Under the pieces are notes generated by a model. That model did not search any database. It worked only from the letters and a program-made list of their open reading frames with translations, and was not told where the DNA came from. A program made the position numbers and the translations under genes. This document shows positions 16,803-37,374 of a stretch of 44,845 bases of DNA, piece by piece (positions within the stretch are counted from its first letter, which is position 1; each line of letters begins with the position of its first letter). This DNA comes from Anaerocolumna sp. (GTDB lineage Bacteria > Bacillota > Clostridia > Lachnospirales > Lachnospiraceae). The stretch lies in NCBI GenBank assembly GCA_029239975.1, contig JARBTX010000027.1, forward strand, positions 1 to 44,845, written 5' to 3'.

Positions 16803-17097
16803 TATGGATTAGAGTGCCAAAAGTCAATATCCATTTTACGAAGGAATATCATTTTTTTATCTATTCATTTGGTTGCCTTTCCTTCAAGTGTTTTGTATTT
16901 TGTAATAGTTTATAATAAGGTAATTGCGAAACTATATAGTTTATTGAATTGCTTATACAATATATACGAATTTTCTAGCTTCAGTTGCCGTAAGGGGCAA
17001 GATTCAGCTGTAAAATTGTATATATTGTATAATCAATAAGGACATCTTTGGTGTTTCGCAATTGCCTATAGTTTATAATTTTAAAAAGGAGTTTACC
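16803..17097 (+). other. Intergenic region containing palindromic element copy 1
   Basis: The 295-bp gap begins with about 100 bp of ordinary sequence (a weak GAAGGAA/TTCCTTC pairing at about 16839-16885), then holds the mobile palindromic element at 16917-17067 with its flanking direct repeats. The ribosome site of the next gene (AAAAAGGAG) starts just after it. Confidence 0.7.
16917..17067 (+). mobile_element. Palindromic mobile element, copy 1
   Basis: About 151 bp. The ends GGTAATTGCGAAAC (16919-16932) and GTTTCGCAATTGCC (17053-17066) are inverted repeats. An inner stem pairs 16948-16967 with 17018-17037 (19 of 20). The centre TTCTAGCTTCAGTTGCC...GGCAAGATTCAGCT forms a hairpin with an internal bulge. 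The 12-bp direct repeat ATAGTTTATAAT flanks it (16905-16916 and 17068-17079), like a target duplication. It encodes no protein and lies between two co-directional genes, in their sense. Confidence 0.85.
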
Positions 17098-17952
17098 ATG
17101 AGTCAAGTAAAAATCGGAATTCAAGCTATGATGATAAAGAATTCATTTGTTGAAATTGGACCTTATGAGTCTTTAAAAAAAATTTCAGAATTAGGTTATT
17201 CTGTAGCAGAATTATCACAAGTTCCTATGGATCAAAATTCAGTACTGGAGATGAAACGAGCATGTAAAGATTTCAATATGGAAATTGCAGCTATTTCAGG
17301 TAATTTAGAATTTAAAGACCCTACAAAAGAAGCACTTAATACAACTCTTGATAAGTTTATAGGTGATTGTAAATTGCTTAATTGTAACTACATAAGAATT
17401 GGTATGTTACCGTATTCCTGTTTAGCTACGAAAGATACTTTATTAGAGTTTTGCAGGGAAGCTGAAAAAGTTGCAGTTGAATTAGAAAAGCATGAAATCA
17501 AGTTATATTATCATAATCATCATTTTGAAATGCAAAAACTAGACGGCCAAACCATTTTAGAAATCATAGAACAAACAGCTCCACATTTAGGTTTTGAACT
17601 TGATGTTCACTGGTTACAACGTGGTGGTTTAAATCCAATTGATGCTATTACACATTTTAACAGAAAAGTTGATTTGCTACATCTAAAAGACTATCGTATA
17701 AAAAACATTCCAAGAGAAATCTGCGAGCAGTCGGACTACAGGGTATTTAGTGAATATTTTGATCATTGCATAGAGTTTGCAGAGTTTGGAGAAGGAAACT
17801 TAAATATGCAAGGAATCATTGCAGCAGGTATAGACGCTGGATGTAAGTATTTTCTAATAGAACAAGATAACTCATATGATAAAACTCCATATGAGAGCTT
17901 AGAGATTACTATAACGAATTTAAAGAAGATGGGATATAGTAAATTTCTATAA
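17098..17952 (+). CDS. Xylose-isomerase-like TIM-barrel protein (sugar phosphate isomerase/epimerase family)
   Basis: 284 residues. The start at 17098 (MSQVKIGIQ) follows AAAAAGGAGTTTACC; a longer frame to 17062 would begin inside the mobile element and is rejected. The AP-endonuclease-2/xylose-isomerase-like barrel shows candidate metal ligands Glu144 (NHHFE), Asp169 (FELDVHW), His195 (LHLKDY) and Glu229 or Glu232 (EFGEGNLN). Such enzymes isomerise keto sugars or, in newer cases, eliminate the aglycone from 3-keto-glycosides after a Gfo/Idh oxidation. The neighbouring oxidoreductases make the second role worth considering, but it is inference. Confidence 0.85.
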   Translation: MSQVKIGIQAMMIKNSFVEIGPYESLKKISELGYSVAELSQVPMDQNSVLEMKRACKDFNMEIAAISGNLEFKDPTKEALNTTLDKFIGDCKLLNCNYIRIGMLPYSCLATKDTLLEFCREAEKVAVELEKHEIKLYYHNHHFEMQKLDGQTILEIIEQTAPHLGFELDVHWLQRGGLNPIDAITHFNRKVDLLHLKDYRIKNIPREICEQSDYRVFSEYFDHCIEFAEFGEGNLNMQGIIAAGIDAGCKYFLIEQDNSYDKTPYESLEITITNLKKMGYSKFL

Positions 17953-18156
17953 ATGTTAGATAAACATCTTGAGGCTATAAAAATTAGCAAAGAGAACATT
18001 AATTAGATAATAAAAGAGCTACAACCTGAAATAATATTGGTTAAAATTTGAGATAAACAGAAACAATTGATATAACTGCTTGATTTAAATAAAAATACTG
18101 ATAAATATGATTAAATAAAGCTTATATATAATAAATAAGCGGTTAGGAGTAAAGGT

Positions 18157-20016
18157 ATGAATTGTGCGATAGTTGGATGTGGTGCAATTGCGTATATGCA
18201 TGCGAAAGTGCTTCAATCCATTCATGATTGTAACTTGGTTGCTGTAGCAGATATCAAGTTAGAAAAGGCAATAGAGTTAGCAAAAGAGTTTGGTTCTTCT
18301 GATTGTAAAACCTATTCTTCTTTGGAAGAAATGTTACAAAAGGATCAAATTGACGTATTACATATCTGTACACCACATTATTTGCATGTTCCGATGGCAA
18401 TCTATGGGATGGAACGTGGAATTCGTGTGTTTATGGAGAAGCCACCAGCAATATCCAGAGAGCAATTTAAATTACTAGAAGAGACAGAAAATAATAAATT
18501 ACTTGGTATTTGTTTTCAGAATCGGTATAACGAGAGTGTAAAAGCGGTAAAAGAAATGTTAGCTGATCCTAGTACTGGTAAGATTAAAGGGGCAAGAGCA
18601 TTTGTTACCTGGACCCGTTCTAAAGAATATTATGATGAAAGTGGATGGAGAGGAAGCTTCATTACAGAAGGTGGTGGAGCATTAATCAATCAGTCTATTC
18701 ATACATTGGATTTATTAGTTCAATTTGTAGGTAAACCAATCTGGACAGAAAGCACAATGATGAATCATCATCTTAAGAATACAATCCAAGTAGAAGACAC
18801 CGTAGAAGCGTATATGGAGTTTGAAAAAGGTCCTGTGTTATTTTATGCAACAACTGCTTATAGCAGTAATTCTCCTGTATTTATTGAAATAGAATGTGAG
18901 AATATTACCATTCGTATGGAAGACTCTTTTGTCACAAGGATTTATCCGGATGGGCATAGAGAAAACCTTGAATTTTATAAAGGTTTTACCATAGGAAAAG
19001 ATTACTGGGGAACTGGTCACACTGCTTGTATTACGGATTATTATGAATGTCTTAAGACGAATGGAATTTTTTCTATTGGTTTAGAACAGGTGAAAGATAC
19101 CTTTACGTTGATGATGGATATCTACGAATCAGCAAAAGAAAAAAGGTTAATACAATTTGATAAGTCAGAAAAATTGTCTGGGTTTGCAGATGAAATCGAT
19201 GCGGATTTTGATAAACAAATCGAAGTATTGCATGAATGTAACATTTCCTACATGGAACTTAGAAGCGCTTATGGTAAAAATATTAGTGAGTACACATTAG
19301 AGGAAGCAAAAGAACTAAAAGCAAAACTTGACAGAGAAAAAATAAAGGTTTCTTCTATAGGTTCACCTATAGGTAAGGTTAATATCTTAGATGATTTTGA
19401 AGAACATTTTAAGTTATTCCGTCATGTAGTTGATTTAGCAAAATTATTTGATACAGAGCTTATCCGAATTTTTAGCTTTTATATACCAAAAGGTAACATA
19501 GCAGAAAACTATAAAATGCTAGTGATAGAACGTCTAAGTCGTATGATTTATTATGCAAAAGATCATGGTATCACCCTTCTTCATGAAAATGAAAAGGGAA
19601 TCTATGGTGATACATTCACTCGCTGCAAAGAAATAATGGATGCATTATATTGTGAGAATTTTAAAGCAATTTTTGATTTTGCAAACTTTGTACAATGTAA
19701 TCAAAATACCTTAGAAGCATTTAAGATTCTAAGACCATTTATTGCATATATACACATTAAAGATGCAAAAAAAGATTCACATCTTGTTGTTCCAGCTGGT
19801 CTTGGAGATGGTCATATTGCAGATATTGTGCGAATCTTAAATAATGAACAATACGATGGATTCTATAGTATAGAACCACATTTAATGGAGTTTGTAGGGC
19901 TAAAGGCTTTAGAAAAGGAAGATGAGAAAAGCAATATTAGTGGAGAGATAAGTGACGGAAGAAGTGCATTTATTACAGCGTATAGAGCTTTTGTTGAGTT
20001 ACTTCCGAAGAGATAA
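18157..20016 (+). CDS. Fusion of Gfo/Idh/MocA oxidoreductase and TIM-barrel sugar isomerase
   Basis: 619 residues, two enzymes in one chain with no frameshift visible. Residues 1-~335 are a complete Gfo/Idh oxidoreductase: AIVGCGAIAYMHA for NAD(P), MEKPPAIS as the EKP motif, and GGGALINQSIHTLDLL with the substrate His. Residues ~340-619 start with LSGFADEIDADFDKQIEVL and form a xylose-isomerase-like barrel with likely metal ligands in HENE (476-479), Asp507 (IFDFANF), His533 (YIHIKDAK) and Glu573 (YSIEPHL). Joining the two strongly suggests consecutive steps on one substrate. The message is probably shared with 15645 and 17098. Ribosome site TTAGGAGTAAAGGT. Confidence 0.9.
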   Translation: MNCAIVGCGAIAYMHAKVLQSIHDCNLVAVADIKLEKAIELAKEFGSSDCKTYSSLEEMLQKDQIDVLHICTPHYLHVPMAIYGMERGIRVFMEKPPAISREQFKLLEETENNKLLGICFQNRYNESVKAVKEMLADPSTGKIKGARAFVTWTRSKEYYDESGWRGSFITEGGGALINQSIHTLDLLVQFVGKPIWTESTMMNHHLKNTIQVEDTVEAYMEFEKGPVLFYATTAYSSNSPVFIEIECENITIRMEDSFVTRIYPDGHRENLEFYKGFTIGKDYWGTGHTACITDYYECLKTNGIFSIGLEQVKDTFTLMMDIYESAKEKRLIQFDKSEKLSGFADEIDADFDKQIEVLHECNISYMELRSAYGKNISEYTLEEAKELKAKLDREKIKVSSIGSPIGKVNILDDFEEHFKLFRHVVDLAKLFDTELIRIFSFYIPKGNIAENYKMLVIERLSRMIYYAKDHGITLLHENEKGIYGDTFTRCKEIMDALYCENFKAIFDFANFVQCNQNTLEAFKILRPFIAYIHIKDAKKDSHLVVPAGLGDGHIADIVRILNNEQYDGFYSIEPHLMEFVGLKALEKEDEKSNISGEISDGRSAFITAYRAFVELLPKR

Positions 20017-20034
20017 ATGAAAAGAATGTTATGT

Positions 20035-20076
20035 AACCCTTTATATAGATGAATGTGATTATCTAAATAAAGGGTT
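20035..20076 (+). terminator. Likely terminator of the oxidoreductase/isomerase operon
   Basis: AACCCTTTATATAGAT (20035-20050) pairs with ATCTAAATAAAGGGTT (20061-20076) at all but one position. The T run after it is poor, so efficiency is uncertain. Confidence 0.6.
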
Positions 20077-20189
20077 TAAGTTTGTTCTATTTGTATTTGA
20101 CCATTGCTGTTATTGCCTTACTTACTATCATTATTTGGTTATTACTATTATGGTTAGCAGGAAAGGTTTATGAGAAAATTAAATATTAA
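20067..20189 (+). pseudogene. Remnant of a membrane-protein C-terminus
   Basis: The frame from 20067 to the TAA at 20187-20189 encodes about 40 residues without a usable ATG. It contains a strongly hydrophobic segment (IAVIALLTIIIWLLLLWLAG) followed by the basic tail KVYEKIKY. This looks like the last helix of a permease rather than chance sequence. It may be a leftover of a deleted gene, or a very small membrane peptide started at TTG (20091 or 20097). No ribosome site supports the second idea. Confidence 0.4.
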
Positions 20190-20203
20190 AATTAATATTT
20201 CCC

Positions 20204-20231
20204 TTGCAAATTTTAATTCTATTGTTATAAT
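20204..20231 (+). promoter_or_regulatory. Promoter of the XRE-cupin regulator gene
   Basis: TTGCAA at 20204-20209, 16-bp spacer, TATAAT at 20226-20231. Confidence 0.6.
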
Positions 20232-20245
20232 ATTAAACAACCAAA

Positions 20246-20259
20246 TGCGTTAAAACGCA
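20246..20259. promoter_or_regulatory. Perfect palindrome, candidate operator of the XRE-cupin regulator
   Basis: TGCGTTAAAACGCA is a perfect inverted repeat placed 15 bp after the -10 box and 30 bp before the regulator's start codon, where a bound repressor would block its own transcription. A similar half-site CGCACAA also lies inside the spacer of the promoter at 20859-20887 (bases 20871-20877). Confidence 0.5.
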
Positions 20260-20288
20260 CAAGGTAATTTTACTGGTGGTGAACACTT

Positions 20289-20840
20289 ATGGAATATATA
20301 ACAAAAAATGTGGCGAGAAATCTAAAACGTATCAGAAAATCAAGAAAAATGAGCCTTGATGTTGTTGCAGAACAAACTGGAATTAGTAAAAGTATGCTAG
20401 GCCAAATTGAACGTGAAGAATCTGTTCCAACTATAGAAACTTTAGGTAAAATCGTTAGTGGATTACGGGTTTCTTTTACTTCTTTAGTAAGTGCAGATAA
20501 AGCAGATACTATTTTAATTACCAAAGATGAGTTAATGCCATCAAAGGACATACCAGGTGAATATAAGGTTTATGAGTATTTTCCTTATGAAGAAGATCGA
20601 AATTTTGAAATATATATGATGGAAATAGAACCAGGTGCAAGTTATTCATCTGGTGGACACGGTGAGAATACGTATGAATACCTAACTGTATTTTCTGGAG
20701 TTTTGACCTTGGAGATGGAAGGAAAGACCTATGAAATTAAGGCGGATAATTCCATTAGATTTCCTACCTTGTGTGATCACACTTATTCTAATTTGGGGCA
20801 AGAGATTACCAAATTTAGTATCACTTTTACATGGGATTAA
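20289..20840 (+). CDS. XRE-family regulator with C-terminal cupin
   Basis: 183 residues: a helix-turn-helix of the Cro/C1 type at 8-62 (LKRIRKSRKMSLDVVAEQTGISKSMLGQIE) and a single cupin domain at about 95-183 (IEPGASYSSGGHGENTYEYLTVFSGVLTLEMEGKTYEI). This plan is shared with PuuR and related regulators that sense polyamines or amino acids. Lying just upstream of P-II, potABCD and putrescine-degrading genes, it is the natural candidate regulator of that cluster. Ribosome site GGTGGTGA. Confidence 0.9.
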   Translation: MEYITKNVARNLKRIRKSRKMSLDVVAEQTGISKSMLGQIEREESVPTIETLGKIVSGLRVSFTSLVSADKADTILITKDELMPSKDIPGEYKVYEYFPYEEDRNFEIYMMEIEPGASYSSGGHGENTYEYLTVFSGVLTLEMEGKTYEIKADNSIRFPTLCDHTYSNLGQEITKFSITFTWD

Positions 20841-20858
20841 AAATTTTAAAAATAATTA

Positions 20859-20887
20859 TTGACAATATAGCGCACAAATGATATAGT
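20859..20887 (+). promoter_or_regulatory. Strong promoter of the P-II/polyamine cluster
   Basis: TTGACA at 20859-20864, 17-bp spacer, TATAGT at 20882-20887. The spacer contains CGCACAA, a half-site also present in the palindrome before the XRE-cupin gene. Confidence 0.8.
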
Positions 20888-20973
20888 ATCAACAATAAAA
20901 TGAAATCAAATAAATGAAGCAAGATAGTTTGTTATTTTTATCCGGATTTTATAAATGATTAATTGAAACAAAT

Positions 20974-21026
20974 GCGTTTAAGTAGATGGCAGTGAGAAAC
21001 TGCGAATCTCTTAAGCGCTTTTTTTT
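20974..21026 (+). terminator. Leader hairpin with T run before the P-II gene (possible attenuator)
   Basis: GCGTTTAAG (20974-20982) pairs with CTTAAGCGC (21010-21018), with a nested GCAGT/ACTGC hairpin (20989-20993, 20999-21003), followed by eight T. It lies between the promoter at 20859 and the P-II start at 21050, so it would stop most transcripts before the gene unless something prevents it folding. A ~80-base leader lies upstream and could hold an alternative fold; I recognise no known riboswitch there. Confidence 0.7.
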
Positions 21027-21049
21027 ATCTTAATAAGGAGGATATTATT

Positions 21050-21394
21050 ATGAAAGAATTAACTATGTATATTAAACCAGAGAAATTAGAAGTAGTGAAG
21101 AATATACTTCAAAAGTTAGGTTGTGGTGGTATGTCAGTTATGAGTATTATGGGATGTGGTATTCAGTTGGGCGAAACCAATGCAGTTGATTTTAAAGGCC
21201 TTAGGACTAATATAAATCTAATACCAAAGATAAAAATAGAAGCTGTGGTAAAAGATGAGTTAGTAGAAGATATTCTCTTAGAAATCAGAGATAAAGTAGC
21301 GACTGGAACTGTTGGTGATGGTAAGGTGATTGTAAAGAATGTAGAAGATGTAATGAGAATACGCACTGGTGAACGTGGAACAGATGCAATATAA
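21050..21394 (+). CDS. P-II family nitrogen regulatory protein
   Basis: 114 residues, a full-length P-II trimer-forming signal protein that binds ATP/ADP and 2-oxoglutarate. The B-loop TGTVGDGKV and C-loop RIRTGERG are intact. The T-loop (about 37-58) is two residues longer than in E. coli GlnB and has Thr53 where the uridylylated Tyr51 would be, so control by uridylylation is unlikely. Ribosome site AAGGAGG. P-II genes usually sit beside amtB; here it lies before potABCD, suggesting it links nitrogen status to polyamine uptake or its regulation. That link is inferred. Confidence 0.9.
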   Translation: MKELTMYIKPEKLEVVKNILQKLGCGGMSVMSIMGCGIQLGETNAVDFKGLRTNINLIPKIKIEAVVKDELVEDILLEIRDKVATGTVGDGKVIVKNVEDVMRIRTGERGTDAI

Positions 21395-21401
21395 GCAAAG
21401 G

Positions 21402-21430
21402 GGCTGACGATAATTTCGTCGGTCTTTTTT
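21402..21430 (+). terminator. Terminator after the P-II gene
   Basis: GGCTGACGA pairs with TCGTCGGTC (two G-U pairs) around a short loop and is followed by six T. It should limit read-through from P-II into potA. Confidence 0.75.
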
Positions 21431-21439
21431 ATTGTATAA

Positions 21440-21499
21440 GAAATGAAAAGCTTGCAAACAAACGTAGATCGTTTGCAAAGGGAACTCTTTGATCATTTC
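21440..21499 (+). promoter_or_regulatory. Structured leader upstream of potA
   Basis: An outer stem GAAATGA (21440-21446) with TCATTTC (21493-21499) encloses two hairpins, CTTGCAAAC/GTTTGCAAAG and CAAAG/CTTTG, a three-way-junction-like shape. It directly follows the P-II terminator and precedes the potA ribosome site. No named riboswitch class is recognised; the second hairpin can pair alternatively with the first. Confidence 0.4.
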
Positions 21500-21533
21500 A
21501 TAAAATATTCTAGCAGATTGGAGTGATAACAGG

Positions 21534-22664
21534 ATGGAGAATCGAAAAGCAATTGTTGAGATGAAAAACATCAATAAAGTCTATGGGGAGAATCATGTAG
21601 TACATGATTTAGACTTAACCATATATGAAGGCGAATTTCTAACAATGCTAGGACCGTCAGGTTGTGGTAAAACTACTCTTCTTCGAATGATAGGGGGATT
21701 TGAAGAGCCTACGGATGGGCAGATAGTAATCGAGGGAGAAAGAGTGGAGAATAAAGAACCCTTCGAGCGTAATGTAAATACGGTATTTCAAAGCTATGCT
21801 TTATTTCCACATATGAATATATTTAATAATATTGCTTATGGGTTAAAGATTAAAAAGAAAAGCAAGGCTGAAATCAAAGAAAGAGTAGAAACTATGCTTA
21901 AGTTGGTCCAGCTAAATGGATTTGAAAAACGCTACCCAAGTCAATTGTCCGGTGGACAAAAGCAAAGAGTAGCAATTGCTAGAGCATTAATTAATAATCC
22001 CAAAGTGTTATTGTTAGATGAACCACTAGGTGCCTTAGATTTAAAGCTTCGTAAAGAAATGCAAATGGAGCTTAAAAATCTGCAAAAACAACTAGGAATA
22101 ACCTTTATTTATGTTACTCACGACCAAGAGGAAGCATTAACCATGAGTGATCGAATCGCAATTATGAACAAAGGATATTTAGATCAATTAGGTACACCAG
22201 AAGAAGTTTATGAAAAACCATCTACCAAGTTTGTGGCAGATTTTATTGGCGAATCAAATATATTTGATGCTACGGTTGTTGATGTAATTGATAATGTAGT
22301 GAATCTTGCTTTTGAAGTTGGTAATGCAGAAGCATTACTAAATCCAGCAAATACGTATTACTACAATGAATTTGTTTATGTTAGTGTTAGACCAGAGAAT
22401 ACACTATTTGCTAAGAATCCAGTTGATGGATTTCATATCGTAGGTGTTGTAAAGGAACAAATTTATATAGGAAATATCATAAAGAGTAATGTTGTTATCG
22501 CCAATGGGCAGATTGTAAAGATTAGTAGATTAGATGTTAGTGTTTCACCTAAAGTCGGGGAAACAATCTATCTCTATTGGAAATTAGAAGACGTGGTGAT
22601 TATGAAATCCAGAGCACACCAGATTCATAGTGTAATAGATAATGCATATCTAGGAGGTGCTTAG
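21534..22664 (+). CDS. potA: Spermidine/putrescine ABC transporter ATPase
   Basis: 376 residues. Walker A is [12 protein letters not shown], signature [15 protein letters not shown], Walker [13 protein letters not shown], followed by the C-terminal OB-like (TOBE) domain ([13 protein letters not shown]). Energises import by the PotB-PotC permease. Ribosome site TTGGAGTG. It ends directly against potB with no gap. Assigned to polyamines rather than other PotA-like uses because the four pot genes are complete and are followed by putrescine catabolism. Confidence 0.93.
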
Positions 22665-24348: not shown

Positions 24349-25401
24349 ATGAAGAAAATGAAATCAATCGTGTTTTTAATGGTTTGCACAGTTATTGCGT
24401 TCGGTTTATCAGGGTGTAGTGGGGGAAATAAAAATGGAACCTTAAATTTATTTATGTGGACAGAATATATTCCTGATTCTGTCATCGAAGGCTTTGAGAA
24501 AGAAACTGGAATTAAGGTGGAGATGCAAACCTATTCTAATAATGAAGAAATGCTTGCAAAAGTACAAGGAAGTAATAAAGGTGCATATGACATTGTATGT
24601 CCTAGTGATTATATGGTTGAGAATATGATATCTAGAGACTTGTTATTGGAATTAGATAAATCCAAACTTACGAACTTAGGAAATTTAGATGAAGCTTATT
24701 TAAATCCCAGCTATGATAAAGACAATAAACACTCCATACCTTATATGGGTGGTGCAGGGTTAATTATCTATAATAAAAATATGGTTCCAGAAGGAGCTGA
24801 TTTTACAGATTACAATGAATTGTTTAAACCAGATTATGAGAATTCCATTGTTGTATTAGACGATTTTAGATCCATCATTGGAATCACGGCGTTAAGTATG
24901 GATTATAGTTTTAATGAAACAGATTCTACAAAATTAAATGAGATAAAAGATAAAATGCTTACGTTAAAGCCAAACATTAAAAGTTTTGACAGCGATTCAC
25001 CAAAGACTCTTATGATCACAGAAGAAACTGCAGTTGGTTTAATGTGGAGTGGGGAAGCTGCCCTTGCTTTATCTGAAAATGAAAATCTTGAAATTGCATT
25101 TCCGAAAAAGGGTATGTATCTATTTTTAGATAACTTATGTATCACAAAAGAAGCCAAGAATGCAGAGAACGCATATAAGTTTATTGATTATGTATTAAAG
25201 GCAGAAGTGAATAAAGAAATATCCAGTGAATTTCCATATCTTAACCCAAATAAAGCTGGAGTGGCTTTAATGGATGATGCTTATAAAAATAATAAAGCAA
25301 TCTGTATTCCAGCAGATGAAATCAAAAAAGGGTTTTATGTGCAAAACATAGGTAAAACAGTGGATACTTACAGTGAAATTTGGGCTGAGTTTACGAAATA
25401 A
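24349..25401 (+). CDS. potD: Spermidine/putrescine-binding lipoprotein
   Basis: 350 residues, signal peptide with lipobox LSGC (lipidated Cys23). The mature part starts LNLFMWTEYIPDSVIEGFEKETGIKV, the standard PotD/PotF opening, and includes YDIVCPSDYMVENMI and the long PYMGGAGLIIYNKNMVPEG segment that line the polyamine pocket. Nineteen bases separate it from potC; ribosome site AAAAGGAGCGAGAAGT. Whether it prefers putrescine or spermidine cannot be told, but the catabolic genes favour putrescine. Confidence 0.92.
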   Translation: MKKMKSIVFLMVCTVIAFGLSGCSGGNKNGTLNLFMWTEYIPDSVIEGFEKETGIKVEMQTYSNNEEMLAKVQGSNKGAYDIVCPSDYMVENMISRDLLLELDKSKLTNLGNLDEAYLNPSYDKDNKHSIPYMGGAGLIIYNKNMVPEGADFTDYNELFKPDYENSIVVLDDFRSIIGITALSMDYSFNETDSTKLNEIKDKMLTLKPNIKSFDSDSPKTLMITEETAVGLMWSGEAALALSENENLEIAFPKKGMYLFLDNLCITKEAKNAENAYKFIDYVLKAEVNKEISSEFPYLNPNKAGVALMDDAYKNNKAICIPADEIKKGFYVQNIGKTVDTYSEIWAEFTK

Positions 25402-25450
25402 TAAGTGTGCTGATGCTAAGAAAACAGTATTTCGGCAGTTGGAGGATAAT

Positions 25451-26824
25451 ATGACAAAGAAAGAGAATGTAATCAAAGACTTAGAAAAAGTTATTAAATT
25501 TATTCATAGTGATGAATTAACAGATGCAGAAAAAAAAGAAATAACGGAAGAAACCGTTTCTTATTTTGATACGTATGTAAGCCCAGGTTGGTTAAAATAC
25601 AGAAAATCAGTATCTACTAACGCTGCAGTTGTAGAGTGGAAGGATTATGGGGCGTATTGTACTGGATTATACGGGGAAGAGTTTATTGATTGTTTAGGTG
25701 GCTTTGGAATTTATACTTGTGGACATAGAAATCCTGAAATTATTGATACGGTAAAAGCTCAATTAGAACATCAAGCCTTACACTCTCAAGAATTATTAGA
25801 CCCGCTAAGAGGTTATTTAGCAAAAGCGGTAGCTGATATTACACCTGGTGATTTAGAAAAGTGTTTCTTTACCAATGGTGGAGCAGAAGCAGTTGAAATG
25901 GCTTTAAAACTTGCCAGAATCGCAACTGGTGGAAAGTGGTTTATCTCAACTGTTGGAGCATTTCATGGAAAATCCATGGGTGCAGTATCCATGGGTGGTA
26001 AAGGAACCTACCGAGTTCCTTATGCACCAATGGTACAACAAGTTCAACATGTGGAATATGGGAATGCAACCGATTTAAGAAAAGCAATTAAAAATCTTCA
26101 TACCGTTGGAGAAAGCGTAGCGGCAGTAATTCTTGAGCCTATTCAAGGAGAGGCAGGAATTATTGTTCCCCCAGCTGGTTATTTAAAAGAAGTTAGAGAA
26201 ATTTGTGATGAATACCATGTAGCTTTAATTTTTGATGAAATACAAACTGGAATGGGTAGAACTGGCACTATGTTTCGTTGTGAAGCAGAAGGCGTAACAC
26301 CAGACATTCTAACGTTTGGTAAAGCATTTGGTGGTGGAATACTACCGATTACCGGTATTATCTGTAGACCACATATGTGGACAGAACAATTAATTGAAAA
26401 TCCATGGCTTCTTGGTTCTCCGACCTTTGGTGGTAATCCACTAGCTTGTTCCGCTGCTATTGCTACTATAAAATACATGCTTGAACATGACATTCCAAAA
26501 CAATGTGCAGAAAAAGGTGAATATCTACTAAAAGGACTGAAAGACTTAGCAAAAAAATTCCCTACTGTGATTTCCGATGTTAGGGGTATTGGTTTAATGA
26601 TAGGGTTAGAGTTTGTTACCAGTGATATTGGATATTCCGTTGCAAAGGGAATGTTTGCTCGTAGAGTAATGACAGCAGGAACCTTAGTGAATTCTAAATG
26701 TATTCGATTTGAACCGGCAGCAGTAATAACCTATGACGATATAGATCAAGTGTTAGCTAGATTAGAAGAAGCTTTGGATGATACGAAATTAGAATTTAAT
26801 TTAGGCAATTGCGAAACTCTTTAG
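25451..26824 (+). CDS. patA: Putrescine aminotransferase with element-derived C-terminus
   Basis: 457 residues, class-III PLP aminotransferase close to E. coli PatA/YgjG along its whole length (VSPGWLKYRKSV, FIDCLGGFGIYTCGHRNP, LHSQELLDPLR, GAFHGKSMGAVS, EIQTGMGRTG). Lys291 in FGKAFGGG is the PLP lysine. It moves an amino group from putrescine to 2-oxoglutarate, giving 4-aminobutanal. Start at 25451 follows TTGGAGGATAAT. The last six residues (GNCETL) and the TAG come from the inserted palindromic element; removing the insertion restores a stop right after LEFNL. The catalytic core is untouched, so the enzyme is expected to work. Confidence 0.93.
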   Translation: MTKKENVIKDLEKVIKFIHSDELTDAEKKEITEETVSYFDTYVSPGWLKYRKSVSTNAAVVEWKDYGAYCTGLYGEEFIDCLGGFGIYTCGHRNPEIIDTVKAQLEHQALHSQELLDPLRGYLAKAVADITPGDLEKCFFTNGGAEAVEMALKLARIATGGKWFISTVGAFHGKSMGAVSMGGKGTYRVPYAPMVQQVQHVEYGNATDLRKAIKNLHTVGESVAAVILEPIQGEAGIIVPPAGYLKEVREICDEYHVALIFDEIQTGMGRTGTMFRCEAEGVTPDILTFGKAFGGGILPITGIICRPHMWTEQLIENPWLLGSPTFGGNPLACSAAIATIKYMLEHDIPKQCAEKGEYLLKGLKDLAKKFPTVISDVRGIGLMIGLEFVTSDIGYSVAKGMFARRVMTAGTLVNSKCIRFEPAAVITYDDIDQVLARLEEALDDTKLEFNLGNCETL

Positions 26825-26952
26825 TTTATAGAATTTAGCATACCATTAATACGAATTTTCTAGCTTCAGTTGCCCTACGGGCAAGATTCAGCTAGAAAAC
26901 ACGTATCAATGGCATGCTAAATAAGGAAGTCTTTGAGTTTCGCAATTACCTA
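26812..26952 (+). mobile_element. Palindromic mobile element, copy 2, inserted at the end of patA
   Basis: About 141 bp. The ends GGCAATTGCGAAACTC (26814-26829) and GAGTTTCGCAATTACC (26935-26950) are inverted repeats with one mismatch. Inner stem 26834-26853 pairs with 26902-26921 (18 of 20). The central hairpin TTCTAGCT...AGCTAGAA is the best-paired of the three copies. TAGAATTTAATTTA occurs on both sides (26800-26813, 26953-26966), a target-site duplication that reconstructs an intact patA end and the next gene's ribosome site. Confidence 0.9.
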
Positions 26953-26985
26953 TAGAATTTAATTTATAGTAAGGAGATGGATTCT

Positions 26986-28470
26986 ATGGCGATTTGGAAG
27001 AATTATATAAATGGAGAGTGGGTTCCAGCACTTTCTGGTAAGACAAGAAAAGTAATCAATCCTGCAACAGAAGAAGTGATAGCAGAAACAGCAGAAGGAA
27101 ATGCAGAAGATGCAAAACTTGCAATTAAAGCAGCAAAAGAGGCGTTTTATGGTACTGGTGAGTGGAGAAGAAAAAGTGCTCAGATGCGTTCCGATGTGCT
27201 TCTACAAATAGCAGATGAAATGGATAAAAGAAGGAATGAACTTGCTAGAACGGATACATTAGATAATGGAAAACCATTAAGAGAAGCAGAAGGTGATGTA
27301 GATGATGCCATTCATTGTTTTCGGTATTATGCGGGAATGATAAAAGCACCTTATGGTGGCATTTATGATGTTAACGATGCGTTTGGACCGATGCATTCCT
27401 ATACGATACACGAACCAGTGGGGGTATGTGGACAGATTACTCCCTGGAACTACCCATTGCTTATGGCAGTATGGAAGATTGCACCTGCATTAGCTGCTGG
27501 TAATTCTATCGTTTTTAAACCTAGTTCGATTACGCCATTATCATCTATTCTATTATTTGAAATTTTGGATCACGTAGGGTTACCAAAAGGATGCGTTAAT
27601 CTTGTTATGGGTTCTGGTGGAACAGTTGGTCAAGAAATTGCAGAAAATTTTGATGTGGATATGGTTACCTTTACTGGAAGTACCGAAGTTGGTAGGGAAA
27701 TCGCTAAAGCCGCAATCGGAAATCTGAAAAAAGTAGGGCTAGAATTAGGAGGCAAATCACCAAATGTAATCTTTGCAGATGCAGATTTAGAAGGTGCAGT
27801 GGAATGGGCAATGGTTGGAATCTTCTTTAATCAAGGTGAAGTTTGTTCTGCTGGATCTAGAATTATAATAGAAGAAAGTGTCAAAGATAAATTTATAGAA
27901 AGGCTTTCTAGTAGAGCTAATGCAATGACCTTAGGAAATGGATTAAATAACCCTGATATGGGGCCGTTAGTATCAGAAGAACATATGAATACAGTATTAA
28001 ACTACATAGAGATAGCAAAAGCAGAAGGTGCAACCTGTGTTTGTGGCGGTTATCGTTATACAGAAGGGGAATGCGCTAAAGGTTATTTTGTAAGACCAAC
28101 TATTTTTGATAACTGCACATCAGATATGACGATTGTGAAAGAAGAAGTATTTGGTCCAGTTGTAACCATACAAACCTTTAAGACAGAAGAAGAGGCAGTG
28201 GAACTTGCCAATGATACCATCTATGGTCTTGCAGGTGCAGTATTTACTACCGATGGAGCGAGAGCTTTACGTGTGGTAAAAGAGATAAGAGCAGGAATTA
28301 CTTGGGTTAATTGTTATAATCCAACCTTTAACGAAGCACCTTGGGGTGGTTATAAAATGAGTGGTTACGGTAGAGAATTAGGAATTCATGGATTAGAAGA
28401 ATACCAAGAAATCAAGCAGGTAAATATCAATCTAGCACCCGGAAAATTAGGTTGGTACGAGGAAAGATAA
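26986..28470 (+). CDS. Aldehyde dehydrogenase, likely 4-aminobutyraldehyde dehydrogenase
   Basis: 494 residues, full-length NAD(P)-dependent aldehyde dehydrogenase. General base Glu253 lies in GLELGGKSPN and the nucleophile Cys287 in NQGEVCSAGSR; FTGSTEVGREIAKAA is the coenzyme motif. Start at 26986 (MAIWKNYINGEW) has AAGGAG nine bases upstream; the ATG at 26977 would overlap that site. Following patA and preceding gabT, it most likely oxidises 4-aminobutanal to GABA (PatD/PuuC role). The substrate is deduced from context. Confidence 0.9.
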   Translation: MAIWKNYINGEWVPALSGKTRKVINPATEEVIAETAEGNAEDAKLAIKAAKEAFYGTGEWRRKSAQMRSDVLLQIADEMDKRRNELARTDTLDNGKPLREAEGDVDDAIHCFRYYAGMIKAPYGGIYDVNDAFGPMHSYTIHEPVGVCGQITPWNYPLLMAVWKIAPALAAGNSIVFKPSSITPLSSILLFEILDHVGLPKGCVNLVMGSGGTVGQEIAENFDVDMVTFTGSTEVGREIAKAAIGNLKKVGLELGGKSPNVIFADADLEGAVEWAMVGIFFNQGEVCSAGSRIIIEESVKDKFIERLSSRANAMTLGNGLNNPDMGPLVSEEHMNTVLNYIEIAKAEGATCVCGGYRYTEGECAKGYFVRPTIFDNCTSDMTIVKEEVFGPVVTIQTFKTEEEAVELANDTIYGLAGAVFTTDGARALRVVKEIRAGITWVNCYNPTFNEAPWGGYKMSGYGRELGIHGLEEYQEIKQVNINLAPGKLGWYEER

Positions 28471-31375: not shown

Positions 31376-32431
31376 TTAACAAATAGCGCGATACTGTTTA
31401 ATCAATTCTTTAAATTCTTCCTTGGAATGAAGAAATTCATACTTAGGATTTTCAACTTCGGATATTAGAGCTGGGAGTATTTGTTTGCCTAGGTTTTCTT
31501 GATTTCCTTTTACTGCGATATGATGATAAAGTGTGGATTTATTCATTTCCCAGGGTGTAATTGCAGCAGATAGAATAGATTTTAATAATGAAATACTAGT
31601 TTCAACATCCTTTCTTGCGAGCGCAACTTGGAGCGGTGCAATAAAAGAATTAATGTCCCAAAGCTGGAATAAAGTAGTGAGTTGTCTAGAAGTGTCAGCA
31701 AGGTAAGTAGCATTTTGAATGTTTCCTTCTTTTAGCTCGATTTCAGTTAAACTCATCAGTATGTTTTGAATCTCGCTTACTCCCATTAATAATTTACGCT
31801 CTAAAAGTTCAGCTGCTTCACTAAATTTACCTTGGTTTATCATTAGATTTGATTGGAGCTGTTTTTTATCTAGGGCAGTTCTATCTGGTAATAAATCTAA
31901 CATTTCCTGTGCTCTATCATATTCCATACGTCCCATGTATTTGGAGACTAACATGTAGATTGCTTTATTTCGAACTTGTTCATCGTTACTTTTAATAACA
32001 CGTTCATACAAGGTTATAATTTCTGTTTCATAAGATTCTTTATTAGTTATATTAGCTCCATATAAAAGGAGAGCGCCATCTAGTAATAATGCAGCTGTAT
32101 GAATCAGCTCATAACAGTTTGGATAATCTTGTATTTTTTTCATAGCCATATGAAACCCATCAGAAAAACAACTATTTCGAATGGTAGTTATAACATCTTT
32201 ACTAAACTGGCTTATCTCTTGTTCTGTTAGCCCTTCATTAAAACAAAGCAGAGTATTCAAATCAACTTTAAGTAAGCGTGCAAGCGGGGGTAATAAAGCA
32301 ATGTCAGGGTAAGTAATGCCCTTTTCCCACTTATTAACTGCAGGTGTTGATACACCAAGATATTCTGCTATTTGTTCTTGAGTCAAACCGATTTCTTTTC
32401 TTTTTTCTCGAATAATCATATTTAATGGCAT
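31376..32431 (-). CDS. XRE-family regulator with TPR-like C-terminal region
   Basis: 351 residues. The start at 32431 (MPLNMIIREKRKEIG) follows GAGGTGTTAATA; an extension to 32440 would use a GTG inside that site. Residues 6-62 are a Cro/C1 helix-turn-helix (GLTQEQIAEYLGVSTPAVNKWEKG). The remaining ~280 residues are helical and repetitive (LLLDGALLLYG, AQEMLDLLPDRT, SEAAELLERKLL), like the TPR part of peptide- or stress-sensing regulators. No pheromone gene is seen nearby. It is downstream of, and in line with, the efflux operon but separated by about 360 bp. Confidence 0.88.
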   Translation of the reverse strand: MPLNMIIREKRKEIGLTQEQIAEYLGVSTPAVNKWEKGITYPDIALLPPLARLLKVDLNTLLCFNEGLTEQEISQFSKDVITTIRNSCFSDGFHMAMKKIQDYPNCYELIHTAALLLDGALLLYGANITNKESYETEIITLYERVIKSNDEQVRNKAIYMLVSKYMGRMEYDRAQEMLDLLPDRTALDKKQLQSNLMINQGKFSEAAELLERKLLMGVSEIQNILMSLTEIELKEGNIQNATYLADTSRQLTTLFQLWDINSFIAPLQVALARKDVETSISLLKSILSAAITPWEMNKSTLYHHIAVKGNQENLGKQILPALISEVENPKYEFLHSKEEFKELIKQYRAIC

Positions 32432-32464
32432 TATTAACACCTCACTTAATATTTGGAATTTATA

Positions 32465-32609
32465 AGTATTAGCGAAACTTCTAATTTTAGAATAGTAACC
32501 ATGAAATTAATACAAGTTTAATTAAATATTACTTGTAATGGCAAATGAAGCGAAATAATTTGTAGAACGTTAGGATTAATTCCATTATCAATTGTATTTC
32601 ACAATTACC
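32465..32609. repeat. Possible decayed fourth copy of the palindromic element
   Basis: The ends resemble the element's terminal repeats (left AGTATTAGCGAAAC, right GTATTTCACAATTACC), the length is right (145 bp), and arms pair inside it: ATGAAATTAAT (32501-32511) with ATTAATTCCAT (32575-32585), and TACAAGT with ACTTGTA. The conserved core hairpin and flanking direct repeats are missing, so homology is uncertain. Confidence 0.35.
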
Positions 32610-32744
32610 AAAGGAGACACGCTAATTCTAACTAATAAATCTCTCTCTAAATACATTCTATCCAATAATATTGATTTGTTCAATTGAACAGTTATTAATT
32701 AATAGAATAAAAAATTAACTATCGGTTAATTAGTTATGAGCAAT

Positions 32745-32783
32745 AAGTAAGGCACCATTTCCATAGGAATCGATGCCTTACTT
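32745..32783 (-). terminator. Hairpin at the end of the efflux operon
   Basis: AAGTAAGGCA (32745-32754) and TGCCTTACTT (32774-32783) pair perfectly, with a smaller TTTCC/GGAA hairpin in the loop. It lies 12 bp after the last ATPase stop. The T run on the minus strand is weak. Confidence 0.55.
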
Positions 32784-32794
32784 ACAAATATGTA

Positions 32795-33691
32795 TTACGG
32801 TTTTTCTATAATAATCTTACCATCCACAAGTTCTAATTTTACTTTATTACCATCCATTTCAAGAGCATTAAGAATATCTCTTGGTATTTGGATGCGGCCT
32901 GATTTGTCCAATACGGCATATTCTTCTTGTGTTTCTTCTTCTAACCAATCAATGTTAATATCCTTTAATCTAGATATGTAATCGGTTTTCATAATTCGTT
33001 CACTACTAGTTTTTCCATCTCGTAATGCAACAACACGATTTACTTTTTTGGATAAGCTATTATCATGAGTAACAATAATAATTGTTAAACCTAGTTCTTC
33101 GTTTAATTTACGAAAGATATTTAATAAATAATCTGCAGTTTTACTGTCTACGGAACCAGTGGGTTCATCTGCTAGCAATAATTTTGGATTATTAGAAAGC
33201 GCGATGGCGATGGCGATTCTTTGTTGTTCACCACCAGACATCTGATTTAATCTGCTATTTTTTTTATGACTCATACCAACAAGGTCTAAAAGTTGTAAAG
33301 CTCTTTCTCTTTTTTCTTTTTCTTTCGTGAATAGCATTGGTGTCATAACATTTTCCAAGGAAGTTAGGTAAGGGAATAAGTTTCTAGCATTATTTTGCCA
33401 TACAAAACCAACGGTGCTTCGTTTGTATTCTACTAATTCTTTTTCATTTAGTTTAAATAAATCCTTACCATCTACATATAATTTACCAGCAGAAGGTCTA
33501 TCCAGCCCACCTATCATATTTAAAAAAGTTGATTTACCGCTGCCGCTGGTACCGATAATTGCTGTTAATTCCCCTGCTTTTATGGTTAATTCCAATCCCT
33601 GTAATGCTAATACTTCAATATCTTTTGTTTTATATATTTTTACTAGATTATCACAAACGACCATGTTGTTATCGGTATTATTCATTTCCAT
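32795..33691 (-). CDS. ABC ATPase with SpoVT/AbrB-like C-terminal domain
   Basis: 298 residues. Residues ~10-235 are a MacB/LolD-type ATPase: Walker A IGTSGSGKSTFLN, signature MSGGEQQRIAIAIAL, Walker B LLLADEPTGSVD. The end (~258-298, LDKSGRIQIPRDILNALEM, then KVKLELVDGKIIIEKP) has the GRIxIP swapped-hairpin pattern of SpoVT/AbrB DNA-binding domains. That module may only dimerise the ATPase, or may bind DNA. The start overlaps the preceding ATPase gene by 14 bases, so the pair is coupled. A second ATG two codons on is also possible. Confidence 0.88.
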   Translation of the reverse strand: MEMNNTDNNMVVCDNLVKIYKTKDIEVLALQGLELTIKAGELTAIIGTSGSGKSTFLNMIGGLDRPSAGKLYVDGKDLFKLNEKELVEYKRSTVGFVWQNNARNLFPYLTSLENVMTPMLFTKEKEKRERALQLLDLVGMSHKKNSRLNQMSGGEQQRIAIAIALSNNPKLLLADEPTGSVDSKTADYLLNIFRKLNEELGLTIIIVTHDNSLSKKVNRVVALRDGKTSSERIMKTDYISRLKDINIDWLEEETQEEYAVLDKSGRIQIPRDILNALEMDGNKVKLELVDGKIIIEKP

Positions 33692-34367
33692 TGATTATCT
33701 CACCATCCCCCAGTTCATATACCACATCACCTGCGCCCATTATACTTACATCATGTGTGGTCATAACAATTGTAACTCCTTCTGCCATGATTAAATCTTT
33801 GAAAATTTTTATTATCTGAAGTCCTGTATTAGAATCCAGCTCAGCAGTAGGTTCATCTGCAAAGATAACCTTTGGTTTATGTGCAATGGCTCTTGCAATA
33901 GCTACCCTTTGTTGTTCACCACCAGATAATTCTTGAGGCATATGATGCATTCTTTGGGTGAGTCCTACCAATTTGAGACATTCTTCCGTTCTCTTTTTTC
34001 TGTTTTCCTTAATTCCAGCTAAGCGGAGTGCGTATTCAACATTTTCATATGCTGTCATCATGGGAATCAATGAAACAGATTGAAATACAAATCCAATGGA
34101 ATTTCTACGAATGATTTCTCTCTGTTTTTCGTTCATGGTTACGATATTTTGATCATCAAAAAATACTTCGCCTTCATTTGGTTTGTCAAGTGCACCAAGT
34201 ATGTTCATAAGTGTTGTTTTACCAGAACCAGAACGACCACGAAGAATAGTCATAGAACCTTCAGGTATTTTAATGGATATGTCTTTTAATGCATAAAAGT
34301 TTTCTCCACCAGCTATAGGGAAGAAGCGTTTTACATGATTTGTTTTTAATATATATTTTGTATTCAT
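33678..34367 (-). CDS. ABC ATPase of MacB/LolD type
   Basis: 229 residues, compact ATPase: Walker A LRGRSGSGKTTLMN, Q-loop FVFQSVSLIPMMTAYENVE, signature [15 protein letters not shown], Walker B VIFADEPTAELDSNTG, switch His in TTHD. It starts one base after the large permease gene. Two ATPases with one permease suggests a heterodimer, the second carrying the extra C-terminal module. Confidence 0.92.
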   Translation of the reverse strand: MNTKYILKTNHVKRFFPIAGGENFYALKDISIKIPEGSMTILRGRSGSGKTTLMNILGALDKPNEGEVFFDDQNIVTMNEKQREIIRRNSIGFVFQSVSLIPMMTAYENVEYALRLAGIKENRKKRTEECLKLVGLTQRMHHMPQELSGGEQQRVAIARAIAHKPKVIFADEPTAELDSNTGLQIIKIFKDLIMAEGVTIVMTTHDVSIMGAGDVVYELGDGEIINGNE

Positions 34368-34368
34368 C

Positions 34369-37170
34369 TTAATCCTCCCCTAATTTTAATGCTTGTGATA
34401 TTTTAATTTTAGAAATAATACTTCTTAAAATTATCATACATAGGATAAATACGCCTGCAATAATAGTAAATAAGCGAATCATATCACTTTGCTCCGTAAT
34501 TAATTCAAGTGGAATGAATTGTGTTGTTGAAGCGTATGCAATTTGTATTAATGGTACAAAGAATTTTGCGGATAAGGTTCCAATAAGAGCACCCATTAAA
34601 ATTGATAGTCCAGTACTAAATATCTGTTCGTTGATTAGCATTTGTATCACTTCTTTTTTACTCATACCCATTGCACGAAATACTCCAAATAACAATTCTC
34701 TTGAACGTATGGATAATATCCAATATATCAAAAAGCCAGCACAACTTAAAATCAATACGATAATAAAGCTCATGGTCAAAATACCATTTGTACCTTGGAA
34801 CATGGTATCGTTTCTTACTTCAATTAACTTATCTGACACATCTTCAAATAAACTAAATGATGTATTATTAACTTTTGCAAAATCATAAATAAAGTCAGTA
34901 GAATCTTTGGCATTTATCCAAACTTGATATGGTCTTAACCCCCAATTTTCCTGTAATAAAGATAAATGTGTAACAATTAAATAATTATCTTTAACTTCAA
35001 CATTACCAGCGTCAGTTACGGTAGTAGTGGTTGGTTCATAGGTAGGCCAAAAATCAACAAATCCATAGATTACACCAGAAATATTTTTTCTTTCTTTATT
35101 TCGATAAGTAATAATATCTCCAATTTTGAACTGGAATTTATCACGAAAGTTACTTGAAACTAATACAGCATCAGAATTACCAGCAATGGAATTTAGATAT
35201 TCATAATAATGCATTGGTAATAAACCATCTTTAAACCAGCTTGTTTTTCCAAAATCTTTTGTTTCAATTCCCATTAACTTTACTTTGACTTTTTCTTTAC
35301 CAGCCGTGGTTTCCACATCATTTGCTACTCTTACTTTAGCCACAGCTTCAACGCCTTTTAGGTTCTCATATTTGCCAAAGTCAGGCTCCTTATACATCAG
35401 TTCTAAGAATGGATCAAATTGTAATAAAGCTTCATTACTTGACCATACTTCTTGTACTACGATATCTGCACCAGTTTCATATTTAATGTTGGCATCTGCA
35501 TTTGATAAAATGGTTCTAGCTACTGTGGAATTAAAAATTCCTAATGCAATGGTAAACATTAAGAATACCATTATAAAACTTTGTTTACTTCCTGTACGTA
35601 TAATTTGAAGAAATGATGCATAAGCAGCAGGTTTCCATCTTTTTTTGCCAATCCAATATATTAGTTTAACCAATATTGGTTGTATTCGTAAAGCCACTAA
35701 ACTTGCACCAACAATGAAAAGGGATGAACTTAAATAGAGAAAAGGATCCAGTGGATTTCCTGTTAAAACTTTTGCTGTTAATAAATCCTTTTGCTCAGTA
35801 AAATTATATAATCCGTATAACGAAATTCCTAAAATAACAAAGTCTAGATAAATTCGTTTCCAAAGGCTTTTGCTTTTTCTGTTTTTCTTTTGCTTATAAT
35901 TAACAATTGTAACATTGGCATGTCTAAATACCGGTAAAACCATTACACTAATAGATACAATAGCAGCAGCAACAGCGTAAAACATAACTTCAGGTGTGAT
36001 AGCAACTTTTAAAGCTCTTCTTTGTATAAATTCAAGAAATGCACTAGTTGAACCTAGAGCTTTACATAAAAAGGCACCCAAGGGTAGTCCTATTATTATA
36101 CTAATGCATGCTACAAATATGGATTGAATCATGTAAATGAATAATATTTGTCCTTTGCCAGAGCCACGGCTTTTTAACATAGCAATTTCATTTTGTTCCA
36201 TATCTAGCATTTGGCTTGATATCATAAAGATAAAGGAACAAAGTAAAACCAATACGGGAACTTGTAAAATCATTAAGGTAGCAATTATTTTCTTTTCATT
36301 TAAATGATAGGATTTTAAGATATCGGTATAATTGGAATCAATAGAAGATGTAAATGTCTTTGATGTTTCAATTATTTTAGTGGTATTATCCAACAGGTTA
36401 TCCACTTGACTAGGTGTGATTGATGTATAATCAAGAAGAACGAACCACTTTACCATCATGTTATATCTTTGGTTTTCTAAGTTAAGAAAATTATCAGTAA
36501 ATACATTTTCTGATATAAAACAATCACCAGTATAGCTATTTGGACTATTTATCCAATAATTATCTGCTCGATTGCTACTATCAAATACACCAGTAATACG
36601 TAGTTTAATAGGATTACCGGATTGATCGGTTAAATGATCAAATTCGAATTCTTCACCAACAATTAAATTTAACTCATGAAAAGCTTCTTTACTAACAATT
36701 GCCTCGATGAATCCATCATTTGTTATTTGATCAGAATACATGCTACCAGAAACGATAGTAATGTGTTTTTCTAAATCAGACATGTACCCAGGTCTAAGAG
36801 ATTGGGAATCTTTCTTGTCCGCCCTACCCATTAGAGACTTCGCTTTTGTATCTTGTATGTAATAATGAGATATTCTAGCTATTTCAGGAACCCCAAGTGT
36901 ATTAGCAATCGATTCTGCTTTCTGTTTCATTATCTTATAATTTTGAACACCGTTTGTTTTATCCATATTAGCTTTTAAAAACAACGTACTAGGATAATCA
37001 TTTTTTTCTTCTAAGTATTTAACAAAATCGTCTGTTAACATTCTTTGTAGTGAAGCATTTTTATACATGGGATTACTGCTTGTAATTGCAATTAATAAAA
37101 TATTACCAATAAGTAAGCTAATAAACATCCACTTTTTATGTAGTAACTTTTGTAACATAAAACGAAACAT
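34369..37170 (-). CDS. Large FtsX-domain ABC permease
   Basis: 933 residues with the start placed at 37170 (MFRFMLQKLLHKKW). A longer frame reaches 37239, but its first residues would be encoded by the mobile element and lack a ribosome site. After the first helix (WMFISLLIGNILLIAIT) comes a ~250-residue extracellular domain, then an FtsX core (VPVLVLLCSFIFMISSQML...LKSRGSGKGQILFIY), further helices, a second extracellular domain of ~230 residues, and a second FtsX core ending LGED (ELLFGVFRAMGMSKKEVIQMLI). One chain thus supplies both permease halves. It is the membrane core of an efflux or lipid/peptide-extrusion machine with the adaptors upstream. Confidence 0.9.
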   Translation of the reverse strand: MFRFMLQKLLHKKWMFISLLIGNILLIAITSSNPMYKNASLQRMLTDDFVKYLEEKNDYPSTLFLKANMDKTNGVQNYKIMKQKAESIANTLGVPEIARISHYYIQDTKAKSLMGRADKKDSQSLRPGYMSDLEKHITIVSGSMYSDQITNDGFIEAIVSKEAFHELNLIVGEEFEFDHLTDQSGNPIKLRITGVFDSSNRADNYWINSPNSYTGDCFISENVFTDNFLNLENQRYNMMVKWFVLLDYTSITPSQVDNLLDNTTKIIETSKTFTSSIDSNYTDILKSYHLNEKKIIATLMILQVPVLVLLCSFIFMISSQMLDMEQNEIAMLKSRGSGKGQILFIYMIQSIFVACISIIIGLPLGAFLCKALGSTSAFLEFIQRRALKVAITPEVMFYAVAAAIVSISVMVLPVFRHANVTIVNYKQKKNRKSKSLWKRIYLDFVILGISLYGLYNFTEQKDLLTAKVLTGNPLDPFLYLSSSLFIVGASLVALRIQPILVKLIYWIGKKRWKPAAYASFLQIIRTGSKQSFIMVFLMFTIALGIFNSTVARTILSNADANIKYETGADIVVQEVWSSNEALLQFDPFLELMYKEPDFGKYENLKGVEAVAKVRVANDVETTAGKEKVKVKLMGIETKDFGKTSWFKDGLLPMHYYEYLNSIAGNSDAVLVSSNFRDKFQFKIGDIITYRNKERKNISGVIYGFVDFWPTYEPTTTTVTDAGNVEVKDNYLIVTHLSLLQENWGLRPYQVWINAKDSTDFIYDFAKVNNTSFSLFEDVSDKLIEVRNDTMFQGTNGILTMSFIIVLILSCAGFLIYWILSIRSRELLFGVFRAMGMSKKEVIQMLINEQIFSTGLSILMGALIGTLSAKFFVPLIQIAYASTTQFIPLELITEQSDMIRLFTIIAGVFILCMIILRSIISKIKISQALKLGED

Positions 37171-37216
37171 GATTCTACCAAACCTTTCTTGCCTTTTTTG
37201 ATGTTTTAAGTATATT

Positions 37217-37368
37217 AGGTAATTGCAAACATCAAACATGTCTTTATTGCTAATACAGTATATACGTGTTTTTAGCTGAATCTTGTCCCTTAGGGCAACT
37301 GAAGCTAGAAATAAATTTGTATATACTGTATTAGCAACTCGATATATTTTATTGGTTCACAATTGCTT
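37217..37368 (-). mobile_element. Palindromic mobile element, copy 3, inside the efflux operon
   Basis: 152 bp, inverted relative to copies 1 and 2 but in the sense of its own minus-strand operon. Inner stem 37247-37265 pairs perfectly with 37319-37337 (19 of 19) using bases different from the other copies. The core (TTCTAGCTTCAGTTGCCC on the minus strand) is conserved. The outer repeats are decayed (AGGTAATTGCAAAC, GGTTCACAATTGCTT). Imperfect direct repeats flank it (37201-37216 and 37369-37384), the latter covering the stop of the adaptor gene. This looks like the oldest insertion. Confidence 0.85.
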
Positions 37369-37374
37369 ATGTTT

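Follow-up and report, generated by a model that had tools for sequence, protein, structure and literature searches.

Short, gene-less repeats with inverted ends, target duplications, hairpins and high copy numbers are well known among bacterial MITEs and related repeats, including RUP, BOX, Correia, bcr1 and MIC231. Other mobile elements, such as Tn7 at attTn7 and Ty3 and Ty1 at Pol III genes, use a safe spot beside genes, at a set distance from them. IS1272, which is covered by the IS1182 family model (NF033551), is reported to target inverted repeats and to make no target duplications (PMC5678879). The window analyzed in this work, 44,845 bp of an Anaerocolumna genome, contains a repeated palindrome that is a MITE family, and copies of this family in Lachnospiraceae-type bacteria lie just upstream of Shine-Dalgarno (SD) motifs.

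The first-pass annotation had described three palindromic copies without coding capacity in the window, and all three are present as short, gene-less elements. They belong to the same core type (core A), are about 150 bp long and share inverted ends, a long paired stem and a conserved apical part (folding z-scores against dinucleotide shuffles: -9.0, -11.2 and -7.4 for copies 1, 2 and 3, respectively). Copy 1 (16917-17068, plus strand; 171.4 bits with covariance model R1; limits here and below include the terminal T/A) has an oxidoreductase gene (15645-16802) on its left and a TIM-barrel isomerase-like gene (17098-17952) on its right. It is flanked by a perfect 11-bp target duplication, TAGTTTATAAT, at 16906-16916 and 17069-17079, followed by AAAGGAG (17085-17091, plus strand), which is the SD of the gene on its 3' side (ATG at 17098) and the presumed target motif. 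Copy 2 (26802-26952, plus strand; 177.9 bits) separates a class-III aminotransferase gene (25373-26824) from an aldehyde dehydrogenase gene (26986-28470). Its 12-bp duplication, TAGAATTTAATT, is likewise perfect (26790-26801 and 26953-26964), and the presumed target motif is TAAGGAG (26970-26976, plus strand), which serves the aldehyde dehydrogenase gene (ATG at 26986) as SD. Insertion of copy 2 moved the end of the aminotransferase frame into the element, which now supplies the final residues of the protein (26802-26824). Copy 3 (37217-37368, minus strand; 139.3 bits) is more diverged and lies between an FtsX-like permease gene (34369-37170) and an ORF at 37375-38502 with a weak HlyD-like match (21.5 bits, cut-off 22.2). 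Its duplication is imperfect (37369-37381 versus 37201-37213, 12/13 identical), the start codon is 46 bp away and the motif there is poor. Thus, the earlier placement of all three copies holds, except that the start given for copy 2 (26812) was about 10 bp late, and the target duplications proposed are perfect for two copies only. A decayed fourth copy (32464-32610, minus strand; 48.3 bits, E 3.4e-7) has six mismatches across both ends in the two-ended detector and no longer forms a stable hairpin; 32 bp separate its end from the start codon of an HTH gene (31376-32431). The window has no Rfam match at gathering score.

Copies of the element are abundant in the window's genome. With copy 2 as query, blastn gives 63 matches there (both strands counted), and the genome-wide covariance-model search proposed in the first-pass annotation, run with a model of 32 own-genome copies and scoring 150 candidates, gives at least 146 matches, corresponding to at least 106 distinct places. 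The sequence GYAATTGCGAAAC, with at most one mismatch, occurs 84 + 95 times compared with 6 + 4 times for its reversed control. A two-ended detector found 163 distinct elements in 1.54 Mb of collected loci and none in the same DNA reversed. Across the bacterial family, 77 of the 397 genomes and 70 of the 334 genera carry the exact end motif GGYAATTGCGAAAC (four matches counted in the reversed control). Model R1, whose filters lose weak matches, is positive in 7 of 61 genomes, all of them Anaerocolumna and including the window's own; the R1-negative genome G008 nevertheless contains elements with the same ends and a different core. Genome contigs scanned for a pair of ends 105-135 bp apart yielded at least 101 stretches; those listed are labeled mainly Anaerocolumna, Mobilisporobacter, Lachnospiraceae and Clostridiales MAGs, Clostridium, Roseburia, Lachnospira and Acetatifactor, with one labeled Bacteroides and some labeled bacterium only. 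Carriage by phages or plasmids was considered and rejected: copy 2 with its flanks has no blastn match among phages or plasmids, and the two-ended pattern has no hit in viral contigs.

Several marks of mobility accompany this abundance. When the duplication frame is fixed at T/AGG...CCT/A (slashes mark the boundaries), a duplication of 9-15 bp flanks 84 of the 163 copies, with a mode of 11-12 bp (exactly 11 or 12 bp in 57 of the 84), against 0.8 expected from shuffled partners; 73 of the 163 have none in this frame. Neither detector found an element at the locus in six genus relatives of the aminotransferase gene upstream of copy 2, and the aldehyde dehydrogenase gene follows in four of six relatives where its start was located (G006, G001, G004 and G009). 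Insertion sites are mostly non-orthologous: among 106 downstream proteins, only five pairs reach 35% identity, of which one, from two sister MAGs (92% alike), seems to reflect a shared insertion, and the other four are 37 to 52% alike. Tandem double or triple insertions at one site, with a short target copy between them, are seen at L254 (1135-4634), L108 (1393-1685) and G000:C178:32830-33302. Inverted ends, duplications, copy number, scattered sites and the occurrence in other members of the bacterial family of an IS that has these ends all bear out the suggestion of a MITE-like family. Neither circumstance that the first-pass annotation named as contrary to it, a lack of further copies in the genome or their restriction to orthologous positions, applies.

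The ends common to all elements are TAGGYAATTGCGAAAC and its complement, about 16 bp long. Element size is 136-164 bp in the two-ended screen, and other members reach 344 bp. Grouping the 163 elements by shared 8-mers of the core gives 25 clusters, with clear relatedness among some of them; the largest two, for instance, both represent core A. Cores differ in sequence between species and usually still form a hairpin: 22 of the 25 cluster representatives fold with z of -3.0 or lower and 14 with z below -5, compared with a mean of -1.4 and 9.0% below -5 for intergenic controls (n = 178). The representatives folding more weakly are L008 (-1.6), L103 (-2.9) and the decayed window copy (-0.3). Six larger members (205-344 bp) have z-scores of -4.7 to -14.0, and a 181-bp candidate (L105) has no hairpin. 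In the stem of the own-genome copies, 95.7% of cells are paired, and 64 cells, which count sequences and not events, are changed on both sides, compared with 24.1 in shuffles and 4-14 when the stem is slid.

The larger members (L258 and L262-L266, from other genera) show further hairpins nested within hairpins. At the other extreme are short forms of 34-70 bp. Very short ones of 34-60 bp keep both ends and have lost the hairpin (L082, L084, L085, L088, L089, L092, L110 and L112), and some resemble deletions inside the palindrome. By eye, a small GC-rich inner hairpin seems common to the cores of L131, L203, L215, L258 and L263, which come from different genomes, and its loop often resembles a GNRA tetraloop on one strand.

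A likely partner of the MITEs, judged from sequence, is an IS of about 1.75 kb with an IS1182-like transposase. The IS was traced from end motifs at contig edges and in the single-contig genome G356, where four copies of 1744-1745 bp are present (L252, L253 and two in L254); relatives of 1745-1811 bp occur in G219, G125, G339, G380, G307, G394 and others. Its one ORF encodes a 485-aa transposase, to which eight other transposases align with 65-89% identity. DUF772 (PF05598) is matched at 54.1 and 43.2 bits in two members (cut-off 23.1). The NF033551 scores (82.8 and 76.4 bits) are below the curated equivalog cut-off of 270 bits, and the IS is therefore named IS1182-like only. A sequence search of the PDB with the transposase gave no match. 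The 3' end of the IS equals the MITE end and the 5' end is TAGGCGTTTGCGAAACGCC in G356; beyond the ends of about 16 bp, no sequence common to MITE and IS was seen. Of 19 IS rows, 15 were analyzed, leaving aside L262 (a MITE plus a chance end), a second pairing at L284, L290 (one end with four mismatches) and L297 (at a contig edge, its ends diverged); a duplication of 10-12 bp is present in eight of the 15 and none is clear in seven. The link between MITE and IS stands on their ends, the duplication length and a common target rule.

The search for a full-length IS with the same ends, proposed in the first-pass annotation, succeeded in other genera of the bacterial family; none was found in the window's genome. 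Relatives of the transposase (E <= 1e-30) are encoded in 37 of the 397 family genomes. None is present at this threshold in the window's genome (a draft, 92% complete), and the single-contig genomes G007, G008 and G010 yielded no such transposase either. Within the genus, the finds were limited to fragments in G005 and G001 and one weak match (27%) in G013. No DUF772 gene was found in the window's genome or in G010; G007 and G008 carry other DUF772 genes, for which action in trans is conceivable. To look for a partner IS within the genus as well, regions around end motifs were inspected, 20 in the window's genome and another 20 in G004, G005 and G008. They hold MITEs, short deletion forms or isolated ends, and those examined for genes contain no IS with these ends. 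By eye, neither G008 nor G005 (100 of its 114 sites) has a pair of ends 0.7-3.5 kb apart that is unexplained by a MITE. A. sedimenticola has a truncated remnant of the partner IS (L272, 1301-1740) whose end is near an SD-like CTCCTTT on the opposite strand. Another multicopy IS, of 1245 bp with a 389-aa transposase frame, is present in G008 (L231, L236, L240, L242, L244 and L246); its flanks look mutually inverted, as if stem-loops were targeted.

The position of the elements relative to genes is nearly fixed. These target statistics rest on the elements of the collected loci and on a simple, home-made gene caller. After removal of 18 elements without 500-bp flanks and three inside called genes, 142 of the 163 remained, of which 136 have a gene start facing away from them. 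The start codon is 25-37 bp from the element end in 107 of the 136 (29/36 in the window's genome and 78/100 elsewhere) and 25-34 bp in 100, whereas only 6.3% of 85,050 intergenic positions in the same loci fall into the latter bin. The flank reads, in order, element, 11- or 12-bp duplication, about 5 bp, AAAGGAG and start codon. AAAGGAG is thus about 16-17 nt from the element end, and its GGAG core peaks 20-21 nt from the element's CCT, with a jitter of about +-2 nt. A strict SD motif is found 8-28 nt from the end in 112 of 161 MITEs (two of the 163 lack 50-bp flanks) compared with 305 of 4040 random intergenic points, and a loose one, at 8-32 nt, in 139 of 161 compared with 775 of 4040. Among the 142 copies, 129 have the motif at their target, and in 106 of these it leads into a start codon with an ORF of 30 codons or more. 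In the other 23 no such ORF follows, and at 13 of the 142 the motif is not in place, some of these cases being wrong-side or weak motif calls.

The partner IS obeys the same rule with one end only. The strict motif lies on its 5' side in 12 of 15 copies and the loose motif in 14 of 15, compared with 0 of 15 on the 3' side for either (L284 has no 3' flank), so the IS presents its transposase-5' end to the gene. The sole exception, the second copy of a tandem pair, has its 5' end turned toward the first. In the control, five other ISs of the genus with ends inferred from column agreement, the strict motif is found in 0 of 29 cases and the loose one in 4 of 29 (L329, L332, L228 and L237). The ends of the IS differ from each other and its orientation is fixed; those of the MITE are alike and its orientation is random, with sense/antisense counts of 40/36 for core A, 6/6 for another core and 3/5 and 1/2 for two small ones. 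Targeting of promoters is disfavored because 31 of the 89 co-directional copies start no more than 20 bp from the end of the preceding gene and no fixed -10/-35 motif is found upstream.

Taken together, it is quite probable that the MITEs are moved by an IS1182-like transposase that reads AAAGGAG as DNA, and that they therefore land beside SDs. They would be non-autonomous elements, moved by a transposase that acts on their ends of about 16 bp, and the likeliest supplier would be the 1.75-kb IS living in other genera of the bacterial family, since lost, or unassembled, in the window's genome. The transposase may pick its target by DNA sequence (AAAGGAG in a preferred context of approximately RAAAGGAGA) and make two staggered cuts on one side of the motif, the near cut about 5 bp away; this geometry would create the 11-12 bp duplication and place the element end 16-17 nt from the motif. 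With AAAGGAG being the SD consensus in these genomes, insertions would be biased to SDs and would land in the 5' leader or, within an operon, between the end of one gene and the SD of the next. The insertion would leave the SD intact, and the SD probably stays free because the element folds on itself in either orientation. The conserved self-complementarity may serve to render the insertion tolerable in mRNA, or may benefit the element itself. A hairpin required for transposition is not favored because weak folding is seen at all ten ends of the five IS copies analyzed (z between 0.0 and -5.0, a range that overlaps the weaker MITE cores). The broader statement, that the IS and many MITE families of one bacterial family use the SD as a landing mark, read either as DNA or via the translation machinery, and have thereby probably seeded hundreds of Anaerocolumna genes with covarying 5'-leader hairpins, appears moderately probable.

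Steering of the transposition complex by the initiating ribosome or nascent mRNA at the SD is possible but unlikely. True SDs do prevail among the motif-bearing targets, the distance is fuzzy and the near cut falls about 20 nt before the start codon, which is close to the 5' edge of an initiating ribosome. However, the preference is for one sequence and not for SDs in general: AAAGGAG precedes 41 of 106 targeted starts compared with 53 of 542 other genes (odds ratio 5.8, p 4.5e-12) and AGGAG 76 of 106 compared with 190 of 542, whereas GGAGG is rarer at targets (25/106 versus 192/542). By eye, two non-SD targets, L050 (AAAGGAG) and L026 (AAAGGA), have the motif opening a terminator-like inverted repeat, and DDE enzymes act on DNA. 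This enrichment and the use of terminator-like repeats make DNA recognition more likely than translation coupling, as far as sequence can tell. The long loci contain 251 AAAGGAG sites; 128 of them lack a start and ORF behind them, and 110 of the 128 are inside genes, where insertions would be purged. Purging of coding insertions would also agree with untargeted insertion in which only survivors, or beneficial copies, remain just upstream of SDs, and only three of 145 flanked copies are inside called genes. This reading is nevertheless very improbable: positions 45-200 bp upstream should be equally harmless, yet they hold 11% of copies compared with 52% of the background, the five other ISs of the genus rarely or never show the bias, and the partner IS faces the SD with one end only.

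The first-pass annotation had also offered a mobile structured RNA, and a hairpin that controls the downstream gene and spread for that reason would be in keeping with the strong stem covariation, the location in 5' leaders and the excess of stable folds over intergenic controls. This reading is nonetheless doubtful, since the random orientation to the downstream gene, in core A as in the other cores, argues against a cis-acting RNA. Cores also differ among species, the window lacks Rfam matches, and the covariation, besides counting sequences and not events, could be mimicked by template-switch correction of palindromes. Of the two descriptions offered, the MITE-like one is supported. Least probable of all, and barely credible, is an IS4/IS231-type MITE, the affiliation guessed earlier. 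The duplication length of 11-12 bp fits IS231, but neither the window's genome nor G007 has a PF01609 match, and the IS that shares these ends is DUF772/IS1182-like (of two members searched with PF01609, one scores 22.3 bits, cut-off 23, and the other has no match).

A search of one open-access library, in which subscription papers are mostly not included, found no account of a transposon inserting at a constant distance from ribosome-binding sites. If such targeting is real, it would represent a new way for a bacterial parasite to spare its host, by aiming beside a common translation signal, and would account for the high copy numbers. One prediction is that the transposase recognizes a short purine motif lying a fixed distance away; the elements would also provide a natural set of 5'-leader hairpin insertions for studies of mRNA stability and operon tuning.

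Compared with known systems, the partner IS resembles the IS1182 family, including IS1272, in its transposase match, DUF772 domain, single ORF and inverted ends, although it scores far below the curated cut-off. It differs from IS1272, as reported, in having 10-12 bp duplications in about half of its copies and in adjoining AAAGGAG. The MITE is short, gene-less, duplicating, hairpinned and multicopy like RUP, BOX, Correia, bcr1 and MIC231; unlike them, it has a fixed position beside SD motifs, has species-specific cores and occurs in many genera of one bacterial family. Like Tn7, Ty3 and Ty1, it picks a spot beside genes and not in them. However, its mark is not one gene or one class of genes but a short SD consensus that is present at many genes.
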